From Chitinophaga pinensis (lineage in GTDB: Bacteria > Bacteroidota > Bacteroidia > AKYH767-A > OLB10), in contig CALQOD010000007.1 in NCBI GenBank assembly GCA_943332105.1, positions 1 through 47,908 on the forward strand: DNA of 47,908 nucleotides, read 5' to 3'. Within the stretch, counting starts at the first letter, position 1, and each line of letters starts with the position of its first letter. The translations under genes were made by a program, and so were the position numbers. The notes below the pieces were generated by a model, which was not told where the DNA came from, did not search any database, and worked only from the letters and a program-made list of their open reading frames with translations. Shown one piece after another: positions 4,787-23,567 of the stretch.

Positions 4787-4885
4787 ATCGCAAAAATGAA
4801 AAAAATAAATCAGTAATTGGAGTGTAACGCTAAGTATAATTAAATTCTAAATGACTATATCTACAATCTATGGACGCATAAAAAA

Positions 4886-4910
4886 AGAGCCGTTACAAAG
4901 TAACGGCTCT
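4886..4910 (-). terminator. Intrinsic terminator of the esterase-like gene
   Basis: A perfect 11-bp stem (AGAGCCGTTAC with GTAACGGCTCT) with a 3-base loop lies 20 bases downstream of the minus-strand esterase-like gene. On the minus strand it is followed by a T run, formed by the A run at 4880-4886. Confidence 0.9.
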
Positions 4911-4930
4911 TGAAGTTAAAAGATTATTAA

Positions 4931-6475
4931 TTAATTGAAGATTAATTTTCCACTTGCTTCTCCCTTATCAAATATTGTTTTGATAATATAAATTCCGGAC
5001 TCTAGTTTATTTCTTTCAATTGTAAACTGACGATTATTAACACCTTCAACATTCATAATTAAATTACCAACGATGTCATAAATTTTGACATTTCTGATTT
5101 CACCAGCTAATGCATCTGCATAAATTGTACTTGATGATAAAGCTGGATTTGGGCTGACGCGAACATTAGAAGATAAGTTTTCAATGTAGTTAATTCCTGT
5201 TGTTAGATTTAAACAAGTAACGATACGCGGATTAACATAACCCATAATTGTATCAATATAAGCCGTCGCTTTTGCTTTCGACATATCAAGATTCGTCAAT
5301 AACGCATTTTGATAAACTAGTGTTCCCTGAGCTGCAGGGTAACCAAAATACTGAGCTACTGCAACAGTAGTTGTTGAATCATACCAATCCCATGGACCTG
5401 ATTGAGGGTTGGTAGCTGTAAAGAATGGATACATTCCTTCAATTCCTCCATTTACCGATTCAGCATAAATTGACAACGGGTCATTGAAATTAGCATTTAA
5501 CATACAATTATTATTACCTAAAGCTTGTGCTAACTGAGCAACAACAGAACTACCAGATACATCAACAACAAAATCGCCAGTAGTAGGAACGATTACAGCA
5601 CCGTTTCCATAGGGAGTAAAAGGTTCACTTACAACATGAAAAGATGCCGTTGGCGGATCGCCAGCTTCAATCCAAGAAGAATCTCCTATGGCGCCACCTA
5701 TATTAATGACGAAGTTTACTTTTGAAGAATAACCAGGATTGTTATTCGGGTTGTTTAACGGAGGAATACCACCAAATCCTTCAAAGTCGCCAATTAATCC
5801 CTGATTTACATAGCTCTGACCTGCAACGAATCCATATGATACATTGTTAGTTTGAGCTAAGAATTTAGGTAAATTAATCTCCTGAGTTTTGTCAACAGAA
5901 CCACATGCTAAAGCAACATAGCCACCGCTTCCATATCCACCCATAATTATTTTGTTTGTATCAATGCCGTAAGTAGATGCATTTGCTTTGAAAAAACGAA
6001 CACTTGCTCTCGCATCCTGCATAGCACGATAAACAGCTTGTAATAATGTACCTGTTCTGATATCTTGTCCAGTAGCCCCTGTAGCAGAAGGATTCCAGCC
6101 CAAACGATAAGCAACTGCAGCAACTACATAGCCTCTTCTTGCAAGTTCATTACAAGTATATACGATATTACTATCTCTCTTGCCACCATTAGGTGATCCA
6201 TTTATTACAGGAGGCAAAAAGCTGCCTGTATGTAACATAATTACAAGCGGACGCTGTGATAGTGGATCAACAGCACCAGCAGGCTGGTAGATGTCTGTTT
6301 TTAAATCGACAGCAACAGGGGTTCCTGTTAGTACTTGAATATTGTTAGCATAAATGACATCAGGAGTAACCGATGCTGATGGGAATATCGGCGACAAATA
6401 TCTCTGTGCCATAACACCTTGAAAGCATATGGCTTGCGTGGTGATTACAATTAGAATTTGTAGAAATTTTTTCAT
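4931..6475 (-). CDS. T9SS-exported esterase-like alpha/beta hydrolase, catalytic His not found
   Basis: The 514-residue product has a signal peptide (MKKFLQILIVITTQAICFQG), an alpha/beta-hydrolase core and a C-terminal T9SS type A sorting domain (about residues 435-514: VSPNPA, NVKIYDIVGN, LESGIYIIK, KLIFN). The core has an oxyanion-type LHTGSF (His82) and a nucleophile elbow GGYGSGGY (Ser183). I count only two histidines in the whole protein, His82 and His280 in SFHVVSE, so no histidine occupies the usual place after the acid; Glu284 sits where an Asp would be expected. It may be a degenerate or atypical esterase. The frame can be extended to a GTG at 6511, but the ATG at 6475 begins a clean signal peptide. 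Related proteins are annotated as carboxylesterases; the substrate is unknown. Confidence 0.85.
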   Translation of the reverse strand: MKKFLQILIVITTQAICFQGVMAQRYLSPIFPSASVTPDVIYANNIQVLTGTPVAVDLKTDIYQPAGAVDPLSQRPLVIMLHTGSFLPPVINGSPNGGKRDSNIVYTCNELARRGYVVAAVAYRLGWNPSATGATGQDIRTGTLLQAVYRAMQDARASVRFFKANASTYGIDTNKIIMGGYGSGGYVALACGSVDKTQEINLPKFLAQTNNVSYGFVAGQSYVNQGLIGDFEGFGGIPPLNNPNNNPGYSSKVNFVINIGGAIGDSSWIEAGDPPTASFHVVSEPFTPYGNGAVIVPTTGDFVVDVSGSSVVAQLAQALGNNNCMLNANFNDPLSIYAESVNGGIEGMYPFFTATNPQSGPWDWYDSTTTVAVAQYFGYPAAQGTLVYQNALLTNLDMSKAKATAYIDTIMGYVNPRIVTCLNLTTGINYIENLSSNVRVSPNPALSSSTIYADALAGEIRNVKIYDIVGNLIMNVEGVNNRQFTIERNKLESGIYIIKTIFDKGEASGKLIFN

Positions 6476-8277: not shown

Positions 8278-9057
8278 ATGAAGAATTATTTAAAGCATCT
8301 TATTAATTTGTCATTACTTATTCTTATTGCTGGATGCGGCAAAGATGAAATGAGTGATTCAAACGGTAATACTATTTTACCAGGAGTGCTTAACGTGGAG
8401 TTTTTAAATAGAGTAGATACTTCTAGTTTAGATATTACAGGCAATACTAATTATTTAAACTCAGCTGGAGAGGAGTATTCTGTGAATGTTTTTAAGTATT
8501 ACCTTTCTAACATTCGATTAATAAAACCGGATAGTTCTCGCTATTATCTGCCGGATACCTATTGGTTAATGGATGCCGGTAAACCGCTGTCGTTATTAAA
8601 TAATTTAAATAATGTTGCTGCCGGTAAATACATCGGGATTGAATTCATGATTGGTGTAGACAGTACTACTCTTTCCAAAGGAGTACAAGGTGGAGCGCTT
8701 GATCCGAGTAATGGAATGGTTTGGAGCTGGTCAACAGGTTATATTTTTGTAAAAATGGAAGGGCGTTGTCCTTTGGCAGGAACGGATAGTTTATTCCAAT
8801 ATCATATTAGTGGTTATCATGATTATGATGGAACCAATTCATTAAGGTGGTCAACACTGTATTTTAATGGCCAGTCGATAGAGGTAAATAAGTCGTTAAA
8901 CACGAAAATTCAAATTAAAACTGACGTTCAGGAGTTCTTTAAAAATCCGAGTGATTTAAGTATTGCGGATATTCCTAATGTAACGTTGCCAGGTCATCTT
9001 CCTCCAATTATTGCAGATAACTACAAAGACATGTTTTCCTTTGTAAAGAAATACTAG
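8278..9057 (+). CDS. mbnP: MbnP-family copper-binding lipoprotein, paralogue 1
   Basis: The 259-residue protein is a lipoprotein (lipobox LIAGC, Cys20, followed by an acidic GKDE) of the MbnP family. Family features are FKYYLSNI (about 72-79), GKYIGIEFMIGVDS (116-129), GALDPSNGMVWSWSTGY (139-155) and FQYHISGY (173-180). In methanotroph MbnP one conserved Trp is oxidised to kynurenine by MbnH, enabling copper binding; Trp149 and Trp151 of the WSW motif are the obvious candidates here. Unlike the second paralogue, its C-terminus ends MFSFVKKY and lacks the HIH triad. It lies in the operon of the upstream T9SS cargo rather than in the mbnH operon. Family membership is by recognised motifs; copper binding is inferred. 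Confidence 0.85.
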   Translation: MKNYLKHLINLSLLILIAGCGKDEMSDSNGNTILPGVLNVEFLNRVDTSSLDITGNTNYLNSAGEEYSVNVFKYYLSNIRLIKPDSSRYYLPDTYWLMDAGKPLSLLNNLNNVAAGKYIGIEFMIGVDSTTLSKGVQGGALDPSNGMVWSWSTGYIFVKMEGRCPLAGTDSLFQYHISGYHDYDGTNSLRWSTLYFNGQSIEVNKSLNTKIQIKTDVQEFFKNPSDLSIADIPNVTLPGHLPPIIADNYKDMFSFVKKY

Positions 9058-9098
9058 AATTGTTTGATTTATGTCAGGATTACTAATTATTTAAAACA

Positions 9099-9130
9099 TT
9101 GTGATTGTACTTTTGTTAGATTTATATTTG
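9099..9130 (+). promoter_or_regulatory. Promoter of the Cys-protein/mbnP/mbnH operon
   Basis: A -33 TTG (9099-9101), a 21-base spacer and a -7 TATATTTG (9123-9130) precede the small Cys-rich gene by 12 bases. It separates the mbnH operon from the first MbnP-type gene. Confidence 0.62.
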
Positions 9131-9142
9131 TAAAACTTAATT

Positions 9143-9514
9143 ATGCAAGTGTTTAAAAACAATATTGTGATTATGCTAACGCTCTTGGTTTTTTTATCGA
9201 GTGCTAGCAAAACATTATTGTTAGTAGATTTTTTTATTAACCGCGATTATATTGCTAATAACCTTTGCGAAAAGAAAGAGCTTAAAAATAACTGTTGCAA
9301 AGGATATTGTCAATTAACCAAGCAATTAAAGCAAGAAGAAAAGCGCGAGTCATCAAATACAGTTATTGAGCAAAAGCTAGAATTTGTTTCCGAATTAAAT
9401 ATGCTGGAAGGATTAACATTTTTTTTCTTTTTTATCCAAAAAATCAATCATGTTAAAATAGTTTCATTGAGTATTGGTTTCTTGAGTAATAATTTTCAAC
9501 CTCCAAGGTTATAG
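9143..9514 (+). CDS. Small membrane protein with a Cys-rich CCxGxC motif, probably metal-related
   Basis: A 123-residue protein with an N-terminal hydrophobic segment (about residues 8-27), a charged region carrying C-(x9)-CCKGYC (about residues 42-57) and then LTKQLKQEE, and a second hydrophobic segment (about 92-112, with a run of Phe) ending in FQPPRL. Small proteins of this shape, with a C-x-G-x-C motif followed by a K-Q-L helix and a Pro-Pro tail, recur beside copper-related receptors and lipoproteins in Bacteroidota; I recall this as a pattern and do not know a named family. The cysteines could bind Cu(I). It heads the operon with the second MbnP, MbnH and a barrel protein. Confidence 0.75.
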   Translation: MQVFKNNIVIMLTLLVFLSSASKTLLLVDFFINRDYIANNLCEKKELKNNCCKGYCQLTKQLKQEEKRESSNTVIEQKLEFVSELNMLEGLTFFFFFIQKINHVKIVSLSIGFLSNNFQPPRL

Positions 9515-9575
9515 TTGCTATCTATTTACAAATTTGAAAATTAAATCAAAATCAAAATCAAAAAAAAACAATTAA

Positions 9576-10373
9576 ATGAAAAATAAATTTTTAAATATGT
9601 TAATGATTGCATTTGTTGCAATCTCTATTGTTTCATGTGATGACGATGAAACAACTCCGCCATCTAACAATGGAACTACAACTTACAATTCAGGTTCTGT
9701 TGGACTTAATTTTGAAAATATTGCAGGTAGTGTTTTCTTAGACCCAACTGGAGCTACTAATTATGTAAATGCTGCTGGCGAAACATTCTCGGTTACTAAT
9801 TTCAAGTATTATGTATCCAACGTTAAGTTAATAAAAGATGATGGTACTAAGTATGAAGTGCCTAATTCTTATTTTTTAATTGATGCGAATGATACTAACT
9901 CATTAATAGCCGAGTTATCTAATATCCCTGGTGGAAAGTATACAGGAATTGAATATATGATTGGTGTTGATAGTGCGCGTAATGTTTCTGGTTCGCAAAC
10001 AGGTGCCTTAGATCCTGTAAACGGAATGTTCTGGAGTTGGAATCAAGGCTATATTTTTATGAAATTAGAAGGACAATCCTCAGCATCATCTAATAACTCT
10101 TTTGTTTATCATATTGGTGGATTTTCTGGAGCTTATAGCGCTCTAAGAACAGTTTCAATTGATTTTACACCTTCGATATTGATTGTTGATGGAGGAAAAC
10201 GTGAGGCCGAGATCCACATCTTAACTGACGTATTGGAAATATTCAAAAATCCAAACAATATTTCAATCGCGAATTCTTCAACAATAATGGGCGTTGGTAT
10301 TTCGTCTTCGAATGTTGCAAACAATTATGCGGATATGTTCTCATTTGATCATATTCATAACGACCCTTTATAA
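9576..10373 (+). CDS. mbnP: MbnP-family copper-binding lipoprotein, paralogue 2
   Basis: The 265-residue protein is a lipoprotein (lipobox SIVSC, Cys21, followed by DDDE, a charge pattern typical of surface-exposed Bacteroidota lipoproteins). It shows the full MbnP pattern: FKYYVSNVKLI (76-86), GGKYTGIEYMIGVDS (119-133), GALDPVNGMFWSWNQGY (143-159; Trp153 and Trp155), FVYHIGGF (176-183) and a C-terminal MFSFDHIHND. The HIH near the end is missing from the first paralogue and could contribute metal ligands. MbnH, encoded 54 bases downstream, would oxidise one Trp to kynurenine by analogy with methanotrophs. A three-fold short AATCAA repeat lies just before the start; no Shine-Dalgarno sequence is seen. 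Confidence 0.88.
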   Translation: MKNKFLNMLMIAFVAISIVSCDDDETTPPSNNGTTTYNSGSVGLNFENIAGSVFLDPTGATNYVNAAGETFSVTNFKYYVSNVKLIKDDGTKYEVPNSYFLIDANDTNSLIAELSNIPGGKYTGIEYMIGVDSARNVSGSQTGALDPVNGMFWSWNQGYIFMKLEGQSSASSNNSFVYHIGGFSGAYSALRTVSIDFTPSILIVDGGKREAEIHILTDVLEIFKNPNNISIANSSTIMGVGISSSNVANNYADMFSFDHIHNDPL

Positions 10374-10384
10374 AAACAAAGTTG

Positions 10385-10417
10385 ATCCTGCGGATGTAGA
10401 TAGTATTTTCGCAGGAT
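10385..10417 (+). other. Hairpin between the second mbnP and mbnH
   Basis: ATCCTGCG (10385-10392) pairs with CGCAGGAT (10410-10417), giving 8 bp with a 17-base loop, followed by TTTATTATA directly before the mbnH start. It may act as a partial terminator or an mRNA 3'-end stabiliser that lowers enzyme output relative to its substrate protein. Confidence 0.55.
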
Positions 10418-10426
10418 TTATTATAA

Positions 10427-11455
10427 ATGAAAGTAGATCTTAAATATAAATTGTTTTTACTGTTGTCATTTATTGTGACAATACAAGCTTGTGTGCCTGA
10501 TGTAGAACCGCCTGTAACAAAACCGTTGTTTTATCAGCCCGATGGGTTTCCTCCCACTTCCGGACAATTGGTAAACAATCCTGTTACGTATTACGGATTT
10601 AGTTTGGGTAAGAAATTATTCTATGATCCAATCTTATCGTTAGATAGTACCATATCATGTGGCAGTTGTCATCAACAATTTGCAGCTTTTGCACATTTAG
10701 ATCATAAGCTTAGTCATGGCATTAATGATTTGGAAGGGACGCGAAACGCACCTCCGCTCTTTAATTTAGCCTGGCATTCAAATTTTTTCTGGGATGGTGG
10801 TTCTTCACATATTGATATGCAGCCTATCGGGCCAATTACAAATCCTGTTGAGATGAATGAAAGTTTACTTAACGTCTTGGTTAAGCTTCGTAGGTCGACA
10901 TATTACCCTGCGTTATTTAAAAAGGCTTTTGGTAGCGATTCTATTACAACACAAGCTATGACAAGGGCATTAGCTCAGTTTATGTCATCGTTGATTTCAG
11001 CCAATTCTAAATACGATCAGGTTAAAACCGGGACCGCAACATTCACCGTTGATGAGCAAAATGGATATACGCTATTTAAGTCAAAGTGTGAAAGCTGTCA
11101 TAAGGAACCATTAATGACCGATTTGAATTTCCGTAATAATGGATTAGATCTTCACTTCGCTGATGCAGGCCGTGCAAGAATTACGTTACAACCAAGCGAT
11201 TCTGGTAAATTCAAAGTTCCATCACTCAGGAATGTGGCTGTTACGTATCCTTACATGCATGACGGTCGACTGAATTCGTTGAGCAAAGTGATTGACCATT
11301 ACAGATCAGGAATTATCCAAAGCAGCACCATTGATCCGTTATTAACAGGCGGTAATATGTCAATTACAGACGCAGAAAAACAGCAATTATTACTTTTCTT
11401 AAACACACTTACAGATCCAGCTTTCCTAAACGATAAACGATTTAGCGAAAAGTAA
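10427..11455 (+). CDS. mbnH: MbnH/MauG-like dihaem c-type oxidase (cytochrome c peroxidase family), lipoprotein
   Basis: The 342-residue protein carries two haem c sites, CGSCH (78-82) and CESCH (221-225), plus family motifs FFWDGG (120-125) and YMHDGRLNSL (276-285), which place it in the bacterial dihaem peroxidase/MauG superfamily. It is probably lipidated: TIQAC puts Cys22 at a lipobox-like site. Location directly after an MbnP gene identifies it as MbnH, which uses peroxide or oxygen-derived equivalents to convert an MbnP Trp to kynurenine. The length matches MbnH-type proteins. The next gene starts 3 bases after its stop, so the barrel protein is translationally linked. A generic cytochrome c peroxidase is the alternative; the neighbour is the main discriminator. 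Confidence 0.87.
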   Translation: MKVDLKYKLFLLLSFIVTIQACVPDVEPPVTKPLFYQPDGFPPTSGQLVNNPVTYYGFSLGKKLFYDPILSLDSTISCGSCHQQFAAFAHLDHKLSHGINDLEGTRNAPPLFNLAWHSNFFWDGGSSHIDMQPIGPITNPVEMNESLLNVLVKLRRSTYYPALFKKAFGSDSITTQAMTRALAQFMSSLISANSKYDQVKTGTATFTVDEQNGYTLFKSKCESCHKEPLMTDLNFRNNGLDLHFADAGRARITLQPSDSGKFKVPSLRNVAVTYPYMHDGRLNSLSKVIDHYRSGIIQSSTIDPLLTGGNMSITDAEKQQLLLFLNTLTDPAFLNDKRFSEK

Positions 11456-11458
11456 AAA

Positions 11459-12397
11459 ATGAAAAAATATATTTTGATTTTAGGCATTGTATGTCTAAGT
11501 TTTGTCACCCACGCTTGTGATGTTTGCGGATGCTATACTGGTGTTTTACCTTATGAAAGTAAAAATTCAATAAGCATTTATTCGCGCTATAGAGCATTTA
11601 AAAACGAATTCTTTGTAGGAAGTAATAAATGGTTTCCTGAGGGCAGTGTGTTTAAAACAGAGCATTCTTCTACAGCAGAAAAGGTTTCTAGTTACGAGGT
11701 GTTTCGAGCTATTGAACTCCGTGGTCGTTGGTTTTTCAAGCCCAAATGGGAGTTAGATATAAATGTACCTTATTTGCAAAATATAGAGGTTGAAGGAATT
11801 CAAAAAAATGCAGTGCAGGGCATTGGTGATATATCATTTAATGTATTGCATCACGTTGTTTCAGATAATTGCGATCATCAATTTAAAAACCGATTATTAT
11901 TAGGAGCTGGAATCAAACTTCCTACAGGTAGAAATGATTTTACTTTAAGCAATGGACAGCGTGCAGCATTTTATAACCAACCTAGCACAGGGTCTCTCGA
12001 TTATAACTTTATGGCCAATTATGCTGCAGGCTATAAGAAGCTTGGTTGTTCTGTCTCTACTAATTTTAGAGGCAATTCTACGAATTCATTTAATGAACGA
12101 CTGGCCTCTGTTGTAAATGTATCTTCGATGGTGTTTTATAAATGGAATGTTAGCAATCAATTATTAGTTGTGCCTTCTGTGATAAATACATTTGAAAAAA
12201 CGAAAGGGGTTAGAATAGGCGATGCCTTACAAAATGGAACATCTATGCAATTGATGATGATGGGCACAGGACTACAATTTATTTATAAAAGCATCGCATT
12301 AGATTCTCAATTGTTATTGCCAGTAGATGAGCCAAAATCTTTAAACAGCCAGCAGTCGACCGTGCGAATTGTTATTGGGTTAAGTTATAATATATAA
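11459..12397 (+). CDS. Outer-membrane beta-barrel protein with an N-terminal CDVCGC motif
   Basis: The 312-residue protein has a signal peptide ending FVTHA, after which the mature chain probably starts CDVCGC (residues 20-25). The rest alternates as transmembrane beta strands: WELDINVPYLQN, GIGDISFNVLHHV, RLLLGAGIKLPTG and a final IVIGLSYNI. Barrel proteins of this general type are often annotated as transporters or MetA-pathway-like porins. The triple Cys at the mature N-terminus is a plausible periplasmic Cu(I) site feeding or receiving metal from the barrel. The start codon follows the MbnH stop by three bases. Substrate and direction of transport are unknown; the copper link rests on the Cys motif and the neighbours. 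Confidence 0.8.
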   Translation: MKKYILILGIVCLSFVTHACDVCGCYTGVLPYESKNSISIYSRYRAFKNEFFVGSNKWFPEGSVFKTEHSSTAEKVSSYEVFRAIELRGRWFFKPKWELDINVPYLQNIEVEGIQKNAVQGIGDISFNVLHHVVSDNCDHQFKNRLLLGAGIKLPTGRNDFTLSNGQRAAFYNQPSTGSLDYNFMANYAAGYKKLGCSVSTNFRGNSTNSFNERLASVVNVSSMVFYKWNVSNQLLVVPSVINTFEKTKGVRIGDALQNGTSMQLMMMGTGLQFIYKSIALDSQLLLPVDEPKSLNSQQSTVRIVIGLSYNI

Positions 12398-21327: not shown

Positions 21328-23499
21328 TTATAAATTATTAATGATAAAATTGGTCATCTTAGTATAAAGATGTAATCGCACACCATCTCCATAAATACCA
21401 TGGTTTCGATTTGGATAAATAAACAAATCAAATTGTTTGTTGTTTTTTACCAAGGCATTGATAAAGTCCATTGAGTTTTGCATATGCACATTATCATCTG
21501 AAGACCCGTGAATCAATAATAAATTCCCTTTTAAATCTTTTGCATAAGTAGTAGGGGAGTTTTTATCATAGCCATCAGCATTTTCCTGCGGTGTTTGCAA
21601 GTATCTTTCAGTGTAAATATTATCATAATATCTCCAATTAGTAACAGGTGCTACAGCAATACCTGCTTTAAATTGAGTATGCACCTTTGTCATTAAAAGT
21701 GATGTCATGTAACCTCCGAAACTCCATCCCCAAACACCCATGCGGCTATTTTCAACGTACGGTAATGCTTTAATGTAATTTGATCCTGAGATCTGATCAT
21801 CTACTTCTAATTTCCCTAAATCTTTATAGATGCAATTTGCCCATTCTAATCCTCTGCCTGGCGTGCCTCTGTTTTCAATACTGGCAATAATGTACCCTCT
21901 TTGAGCAAGCATCTGATGCCATAAATAATTGGGGCCATCCCAATCGTTAGTTACTGTTTGTACACCTGGACCGCCATAAACATTAATTAATACGGGATAT
22001 CTTAATGTTGAATCAAAATCGGGAGGATAAATCATCCAACCATAAAACTCAAGTCCGTATTTATTTTTAAAAGTAAACTCTTTGATTTTTCCTAATTTGA
22101 ATTCTTGTAGAGCTGCTTTTAAGTTTCGATTATCTTCTAAAACCCGAATTATTTTACCTGTATTATTAATTACAGAACAAGTATATGGCTTTCCATAAGC
22201 TGAGTGGGTGTCAATAAAATATTCAAATCCACTGCTGAATGATGCACTATGAGTACCTTTTTCAGGACTTAAATTTGTTTTATTTCCATTGGCATTAATA
22301 GCGAAAACATATCGTTCGGTAGGACTTAATTCTGTTGATAGATAATAAAAAGTTTTTTTTGCTTCATCATATCCGTAGTAAGTGGAAACCTCAAAATTTC
22401 CTTTTGTGATTTGTTTAATTAATGTTCCATCGGTGGCGTAAAGGTAAATATGATTAAAACCGTCACGCGTTGATGTCCATATAAACTGTTTCCCATTCTT
22501 TAAAAATGTCAAGTCGTTGGTTATTTCAATGAATGAATTATTATCTTCTTTAATAACAGCTTTTGATGAATTATCTGATACATTGCAGAATAATAACTCT
22601 AAATGACTTTGATGTCGGTTTAATGTTTGAACACTTAAAATATTTGAATTTTCTGTCCATTTTATACGCGGAATATATTCGCGCTCTTTACCAGTATTGA
22701 TCAACTTACTTTGATTTGTGTTTAAATCATAAACATAAATTTCCACTTTCGAATTTTCTTCACCTGCTTTAGGATATTTATATTTTTCTTCTTTAGGATA
22801 AAGCTCTCCGTAATAAGTTAGGTTAAACTCCTTAACATTGCTTTCATCAAATTTATAGTAGGCTATTTTCTTTCCGTCAGGTGACCATACATAGGCAACA
22901 TCCATACTGAATTCTTCTTCATAAACCCAATCAGTAGCCCCATTAATAATAGCATTTTTCATTCCGTCTGTTGTGATGGCGAATTCTTTTTTTGATGATA
23001 AATCATAAACAAACAGGTTGTTCTCTTTCACATAAGCTACTTGTTTATTGTCGGGCGAAAATTGACAATACATTACTTTTTCTTGCTGCGTAATTTTTGA
23101 AATTTGTTTTGAAATGCGATTAAAAACGTAGTAATCTGATTTGCTCGAATGACGATAAATAGCTTCCGTATTTGCTGATAGTAAAATCATATTTTCATCG
23201 CTGCTGAATTGATAATCACTGATGGTAATTGTATCACCATTATAAACCAGGTCGTTTTCAGTTAGAATTGTTTCCAATGCTTTCCCATCTTTAAAAGCAT
23301 ATTTCACAATTTGAAAATTAGGTGCATAGACTAAATTTGAATAATACTCACCATTGCTCATTGAATTGAATCCACTTACCGTTTGAGCATATAATTTTCT
23401 GCTATTCCATATATCATCTAATTGAAGAAATCCTTTTTGTGAAAAGGAGTTGTGTGTTGTTGATGTTAATAGAAGCAATATTGTTAAAATCTTTTTCAT
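21328..23499 (-). CDS. Dipeptidyl peptidase IV (S9B)
   Basis: The 723-residue exported peptidase has a signal peptide (MKKILTILLLLTSTTHNSFS), an N-terminal beta-propeller (about 30-470) containing the substrate-N-terminus-binding DWVYEEEF, and a C-terminal alpha/beta-hydrolase domain with the serine motif GWSFGGYMT, Asp in HGSSDDNVH and His in NRNHGIYG. It removes X-Pro dipeptides from peptides in the periplasm or at the surface and supports peptide use. The start at 23499 begins the signal peptide; the longer reading frame begins only with TTG. A -7 box TACATTTG lies on the minus strand at 23531-23524. Length and motifs are those of the Bacteroidota DPP IV. Confidence 0.95.
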   Translation of the reverse strand: MKKILTILLLLTSTTHNSFSQKGFLQLDDIWNSRKLYAQTVSGFNSMSNGEYYSNLVYAPNFQIVKYAFKDGKALETILTENDLVYNGDTITISDYQFSSDENMILLSANTEAIYRHSSKSDYYVFNRISKQISKITQQEKVMYCQFSPDNKQVAYVKENNLFVYDLSSKKEFAITTDGMKNAIINGATDWVYEEEFSMDVAYVWSPDGKKIAYYKFDESNVKEFNLTYYGELYPKEEKYKYPKAGEENSKVEIYVYDLNTNQSKLINTGKEREYIPRIKWTENSNILSVQTLNRHQSHLELLFCNVSDNSSKAVIKEDNNSFIEITNDLTFLKNGKQFIWTSTRDGFNHIYLYATDGTLIKQITKGNFEVSTYYGYDEAKKTFYYLSTELSPTERYVFAINANGNKTNLSPEKGTHSASFSSGFEYFIDTHSAYGKPYTCSVINNTGKIIRVLEDNRNLKAALQEFKLGKIKEFTFKNKYGLEFYGWMIYPPDFDSTLRYPVLINVYGGPGVQTVTNDWDGPNYLWHQMLAQRGYIIASIENRGTPGRGLEWANCIYKDLGKLEVDDQISGSNYIKALPYVENSRMGVWGWSFGGYMTSLLMTKVHTQFKAGIAVAPVTNWRYYDNIYTERYLQTPQENADGYDKNSPTTYAKDLKGNLLLIHGSSDDNVHMQNSMDFINALVKNNKQFDLFIYPNRNHGIYGDGVRLHLYTKMTNFIINNL

Positions 23500-23523
23500 A
23501 ATGTTGAAAATTAATGAGGTATA

Positions 23524-23567
23524 CAAATGTAATAATTTGCGCAATAGTATTTTATTATTTAAATTTG
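23524..23567. promoter_or_regulatory. Divergent promoters of the DPP IV gene and the DUF4412-like gene
   Basis: On the plus strand, TTTG (23536-23539), a 20-base spacer and TAAATTTG (23560-23567) form a near-ideal promoter 18 bases before the ATG at 23586. On the minus strand, TACATTTG (23531-23524) is a -7 box for DPP IV, without a clear -33 element. The two promoters lie back to back. Confidence 0.68.

Follow-up and report, generated by a model that had tools for sequence, protein, structure and literature searches.

A T9SS-tailed family of esterase-like proteins without the canonical catalytic triad is paired with one TonB-dependent receptor in Bacteroidota genomes

The gene at positions 4931-6475 of the window (the whole stretch of DNA analysed, 47,908 nucleotides of Chitinophaga pinensis contig CALQOD010000007.1, assembly GCA_943332105.1) encodes a member of an old, selectively maintained family of pseudo-esterases, here called family A, whose lack of activity is predicted from its sequences. 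The canonical catalytic triad is absent family-wide, and the family is further marked by purifying selection, a predicted alpha/beta-hydrolase fold, a type IX secretion system (T9SS) sorting domain, and a genomic pairing with one TonB-dependent receptor. On balance, we think it probable that A is a T9SS-exported, maintained pseudo-esterase that acts as the extracellular partner of this one specific receptor, binding a ligand without cleaving it. Of the two readings offered in a preliminary description of this DNA, one was a pseudoenzyme serving as a secreted binder, and it is better supported than was thought at the time, in that the nucleophile is also gone, again family-wide. The features on which the argument draws are as follows.

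4931..6475, minus strand: pseudo-esterase gene (family A member), stop codon included (open reading frame and alignment of 93 distinct family A sequences)
6404..6475, minus strand: probable signal peptide, residues 1-24, ending ...VMAQ (by eye from the translation)
5186..6403, minus strand: alpha/beta-hydrolase (BD-FAE-like) domain, residues 25-430 (Pfam PF20434; model pLDDT 94; PDB esterases with Z up to 25.5)
6221..6232, minus strand: HTGS oxyanion-strand motif with His82, HGG in paralogues (His in 90 of the 93 A sequences and 29 of the 36 B sequences)
5921..5941, minus strand: altered nucleophile elbow GGYGSGG (alignments and models of families A and B)
5930-5932, minus strand: Gly182, nucleophile slot (alignments and models)
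5927-5929, minus strand: Ser183, residue after the nucleophile slot (alignments and models)
5636..5638, minus strand: His280, within strand beta7, common to canonical paralogues (alignment and model)
5624..5626, minus strand: Glu284, catalytic-acid position, Asp in 91 of 93 A (alignment)
5378..5434, minus strand: strand beta8 (MYPF) and following loop, the expected site of the catalytic histidine, with a conserved PW[ED]W there instead (models and alignment)
4940..5155, minus strand: T9SS type A sorting domain, residues 441-512 (PF18962, 3.2e-09; TIGR04183, 1.2e-08)

The open reading frame is real: it begins with an ATG at 6475 on the minus strand, remains open for 514 residues, and yields both the BD-FAE esterase-like domain and the C-terminal T9SS sorting domain by profile, as had been proposed. 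The BD-FAE profile matches the window protein at 1e-13, above the Pfam gathering score, and matches all 38 of the family members scanned (E 0.01), such that profile and fold match together place the protein among the BD-FAE-type alpha/beta-hydrolases. The sorting tail is of type A, scoring 34.8 bits against TIGR04183 (cut-off 23), and the same genome encodes the T9SS translocon protein SprA (TIGR04189, 2622.7 bits).

Matches to the window protein were found in 48 of the 61 genomes searched (its own and 60 relatives), and the aligned set divides into family A, to which the window protein belongs, and family B, a group of paralogous esterases with T9SS sorting tails. Named records contributed a further 80 loci, those with the best of 374 matches, which brings the set to 93 distinct A and 36 distinct B sequences; the two families are 41% identical over 253 columns in a profile comparison. 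For the tree, 47 A sequences were taken together with all 36 of B and the two elbow columns were removed; A and B fall on either side of one fully supported branch. Of 24 genomes sampled from the bacterial family of the window, 22 have family A.

The preliminary description had taken the nucleophile elbow, GYGSGG with Ser183, to be intact. This is one residue off, since in the alignment and in the models alike the nucleophile slot is filled by Gly182, and the serine that the GxSxG elbow of an active serine esterase would have is therefore missing. The column, which is ungapped, holds glycine in 92 of 93 A sequences and tyrosine in the remaining one, versus serine in all 36 of family B; a further six A sequences, fetched afterwards, all have glycine. 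The single tyrosine belongs to the second copy of a tandem pair at locus L153, a copy that also has asparagine for the acid. (Tandem A genes were seen at L153:7424-8923, L126 and L127.) Ser183, for its part, aligns with the alanine of the paralogues' GxSAG, directly after the nucleophile, and within family A this position is serine in 48 and threonine in 45 of the 93 sequences, with nine Ser/Thr changes on the tree. The models agree: in that of family A (pLDDT 94; model number plus 24 gives the protein number) strand beta5 (171-181) is followed by Gly182 as the turn residue and by helix C from Ser183 onwards, and in that of family B (pLDDT 91.5) beta5 (129-139) is followed by Ser140 in the turn and by the helix from 141 onwards. 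In addition, a profile search of solved structures aligns Gly182 with the nucleophile position of Thermogutta Est2 in entry 7bfr; the enzyme there is phosphorylated by paraoxon, and the letter X at this position was taken as the modified serine.

As described beforehand, the window protein has only two histidines, 82 and 280, and none after 280, hence none at the usual catalytic place. Where that place lies had been drawn imprecisely, at GGIEGMYPF. In the model MYPF (348-351) is strand beta8, and the loop equivalent to the histidine loop of family B follows at about 352-366; in the B model, the histidine of the conserved HVPY motif (262) stands five residues past beta8 (252-257). An assignment of the missing histidine to Met348, suggested by sequence alignment, was dropped on the same grounds. 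No histidine follows beta8 in the window protein, and family A carries the PW[ED]W motif in this loop, with Trp362 in 92 and Trp364 in 91 of the 93 sequences. Indeed, 39 of 93 A sequences have no histidine whatsoever after residue 284, versus 0 of 36 in family B. Among the 93 aligned sequences no family-wide catalytic histidine was found: the only histidines common to family A are His82 and His280, and both also occur in B (29 and 34 of 36 sequences, respectively). Eleven of the 93 have a histidine at the column of residue 345, and in this subset an unusual catalytic arrangement is conceivable. The acid after beta7, as expected of an active serine esterase, is present in the window protein as Glu284, the only glutamate at a position that is aspartate in 91 A sequences and asparagine in one. 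In family B the triad columns are Ser 36/36, Asp 36/36 and His 34/36. A disulphide between the conserved residues Cys108 and Cys324 was also considered, and dropped because Cys108 is retained where Cys324 is missing.

The nucleophile column changes once on the tree, and the nucleophile and catalytic histidine of family A are probably missing through one ancestral loss. What remains is a maintained protein, as follows from the dN/dS of the hydrolase domain, 0.05-0.15 against six same-genus sequences (with synonymous changes near saturation for the more distant of the six), together with a set of A-specific residues conserved in at least 95% of sequences (T83, N92, S102, W127, R140, Y186, K204, D332, W362, W364, N395 and R417). 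Family A thus combines a triad absent across its lineage with a sequence under purifying selection, the combination expected of a pseudoenzyme.

Clustering of the neighbours of family A genes revealed a TonB-dependent receptor of about 940 residues, with Pfam plug, barrel and carboxypeptidase-regulatory domains. Among the 80 loci with the best of 374 matches it adjoins A in 45, preceding it in 40 and following it in five, always on the same strand; of the 69 of these loci in which the sequence upstream of A exceeds 1.5 kb, 42 contain it. No copy lies in the window, but a full-length relative (57% identity) is encoded on another contig of the window's genome, at G000:C25:25287-28097, flanked on both sides by other genes. 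By raw counts that ignore shared ancestry, 37 of the 61 genomes have A and the receptor, two have A only (G006 and G022, 79% and 80% complete), none has the receptor only and 22 have neither, that is, the receptor is found in 37 of 39 genomes with A and in 0 of 22 without it. Counted in the same way across 395 genomes of the phylum, a set that like the first includes the window's genome, A occurs in seven, the receptor in the same seven, and the receptor in 0 of the other 388. The limits for presence were set after the score gaps had been seen: in the 61 genomes, E of 1e-60 or better for A (weakest 2.9e-68, next 1.6e-38) and at least 53% identity for the receptor, which leaves out distant paralogues at 35-43%; in the 395 genomes, at least 282 bits for A (next 148) and at least 983 bits for the receptor (next 483). 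In one genome, G016, the receptor was seen only as a 250-residue piece.

Four genomes (G008, G013, G035 and G041) lack both genes within families that usually have the pair. Given this joint absence and the co-occurrence in both genome sets, we read A and the receptor as a functional pair. The operon is not universal, since of the 37 genomes with both genes 19 have them adjacent and 18, including that of the window, have them on different contigs. Distances among A proteins correlate with those among receptors (r 0.92 over 38 pairs, with species divergence uncontrolled). The receptor is not a member of the SusC/RagA family by profile, as all five receptors tested score 79-126 bits against TIGR04056, for which the cut-off is 368.25, and its match to solved structures is limited to an 85-residue domain of a SusC homologue.

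Other genes near A or near the receptor also deserve mention. At 3 of the 12 loci fetched around distant relatives of the receptor (L177:6500-8167, L178:6121-7806 and L179:6183-7733), the gene right after the receptor encodes a GDSL-type hydrolase lipoprotein, which looks as though another esterase fold had the partner role at these loci and faintly suggests that compounds bearing esters are what this receptor family handles. The window itself contains, at 8278-12397, two MbnP copper-binding-type genes (PF20243), a small open reading frame, an MbnH/MauG-like di-haem gene and then an outer-membrane-type protein. A tie between these neighbours and A was tested and set aside as not specific, with a relative of the MbnH-like gene present in 53 of 61 genomes, several of them without A, and usually elsewhere in the genome. 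At L090 (upstream of 5896), MbnP- and MbnH-like genes immediately precede the receptor, A and B, all on one strand; this is the sole such case among the 80 loci and possibly a hint at a metal or metallophore cargo. In the same-genus loci L078-L080, A is separated from the next gene by an additional one of about 196 residues, which is missing in the window (4787-4930) and in L077. Elsewhere in the window, the translation of 21328-23544 shows (by eye) GWSFGG and, late in the sequence, NHG; this S9-peptidase-like protein looks like a canonical alpha/beta-hydrolase.

Could the protein still be an enzyme? The other reading in the preliminary description was a rearranged triad built on a His280-Glu284 pair. 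These two residues and Ser183 do exist in the window protein, but we consider such a triad very improbable. His280 is no peculiarity of family A: 34 of 36 intact paralogues have it too, with another histidine in their triad. In the model His280 lies inside beta7, and it is replaced by glutamine in 6 of 93 A sequences. Glu284 is simply the ordinary acid position, and Ser183 stands outside the nucleophile position. A new catalytic arrangement acting on an ester or other substrate, built for instance from Ser/Thr183 or Asp/Glu284 with the 361-366 loop, would make sense of the retention of His82 (90 of 93), of the acid and of a hydroxyl residue at 183 (all 93 sequences have Ser or Thr), and the GDSL-type lipoproteins beside distant receptor relatives likewise hint at an ester-carrying substrate. 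Nonetheless, we think such an enzyme quite unlikely with glycine in the nucleophile slot, with conserved histidines limited to the two shared with the paralogues, and with a residue 183 that opens helix C in the model and, unlike a nucleophile, switches repeatedly between serine and threonine on the tree. As for a decaying pseudogene or a sequencing artefact of one metagenome-assembled genome, we found no point in its favour, and the same changes in 93 distinct A sequences, the low dN/dS and the reading frames without internal stops reduce its probability almost to nothing.

A different possibility is that A is indeed a pseudoenzyme and has no small ligand, being instead a cap, gate or assembly factor of the receptor, or an allosteric or scaffolding partner of esterase B. 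B lies in the same locus as A in 10 of the 80 loci, there together with the receptor, and the near-invariant A-specific residues could form an interface as well as a pocket. However, no family B member was detected in the window's genome, which has both A and the receptor, and thus a B-dependent role of A is not general; moreover, the conserved acid suggests that the old pocket is still in use. We regard this role as unlikely, though less so than any form of catalysis by the residues discussed above.

Our preferred reading, a receptor partner that binds without cutting, finds parallels in several known systems. The BD-FAE/HSL-like esterases (PF20434), such as Est2 of Thermogutta terrifontis (5ao9/7bfr) and Lip_vut4 (6nkf), have the same fold and domain as A, and Est2 superposes on the A model with Z 25.5 and an rmsd of 2.7 over 237 residues at 24% identity. 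Unlike them, A has glycine for the nucleophile serine, has lost the catalytic histidine and carries a T9SS tail, and its core is longer, with 406 residues modelled versus 260-280 for Est2. A and family B are alike in their sorting tails, but the B core is shorter (294 residues modelled) and A carries extra segments relative to it. In the neuroligins, glycine stands where the catalytic serine is expected. These proteins, glutactin and a domain of thyroglobulin are known non-catalytic alpha/beta-hydrolases, in which a hydrolase fold without a working triad is used for extracellular binding, according to PMC5943944; in contrast to A, they are animal proteins of the cholinesterase branch and have no link to a transporter. 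In plants, PMC3531792 describes a proposed descent of the gibberellin receptor GID1 from HSL-type esterases through loss of the active-site histidine, with the ligand held by the remaining triad serine and aspartate. GID1 differs from A in having retained the serine and in being a plant hormone receptor rather than an exported bacterial protein. Finally, the SusC/SusD pairs of Bacteroidota combine a TonB-type barrel with a surface partner that captures the ligand (as outlined in PMC7618045), a capture that A would perform by analogy. The A-receptor pair is nevertheless distinct, as its receptor falls under the SusC cut-off and a T9SS-tailed alpha/beta-hydrolase stands where a SusD lipoprotein would be.

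We infer the surface location of A, its contact with the receptor, its binding of a ligand and the kind of ligand. A is related to secreted esterases of the BD-FAE type; it lacks their nucleophile and catalytic histidine, while it has retained the acid and the architecture on the oxyanion side and acquired loops about the former pocket. The T9SS would export it to the cell surface, where it would most likely bind its ligand uncleaved, perhaps an ester- or acyl-bearing compound, and then pass it to the receptor or gate the receptor; a ligand-capture role of this kind is what likeness to GID1 and to the SusD lids would predict. It is tempting to go one step further and, more tentatively and with somewhat less than even confidence, to see in A a new kind of TonB-receptor partner: a triad-stripped esterase fold, delivered by the T9SS, that would act in the manner of a SusD lid, capturing a ligand with ester or acyl groups, and that in some lineages would be paired with an active B releasing or trimming that ligand.

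Among the titles and opening lines of abstracts in the open-access literature searched, no paper on family A or on such a receptor pairing was found. Binding, non-cutting alpha/beta-hydrolases are known in animals and plants, and family A, an old bacterial family, would be a further case. Its members are likely to be mistaken for ordinary esterases, because the profile that they match is that of an esterase family. The tight pairing of A with its receptor, kept even where the two genes lie apart, provides a concrete hypothesis of two-component uptake, and it suggests that a T9SS cargo protein can stand in for a surface lipoprotein as the partner of a TonB-dependent receptor.
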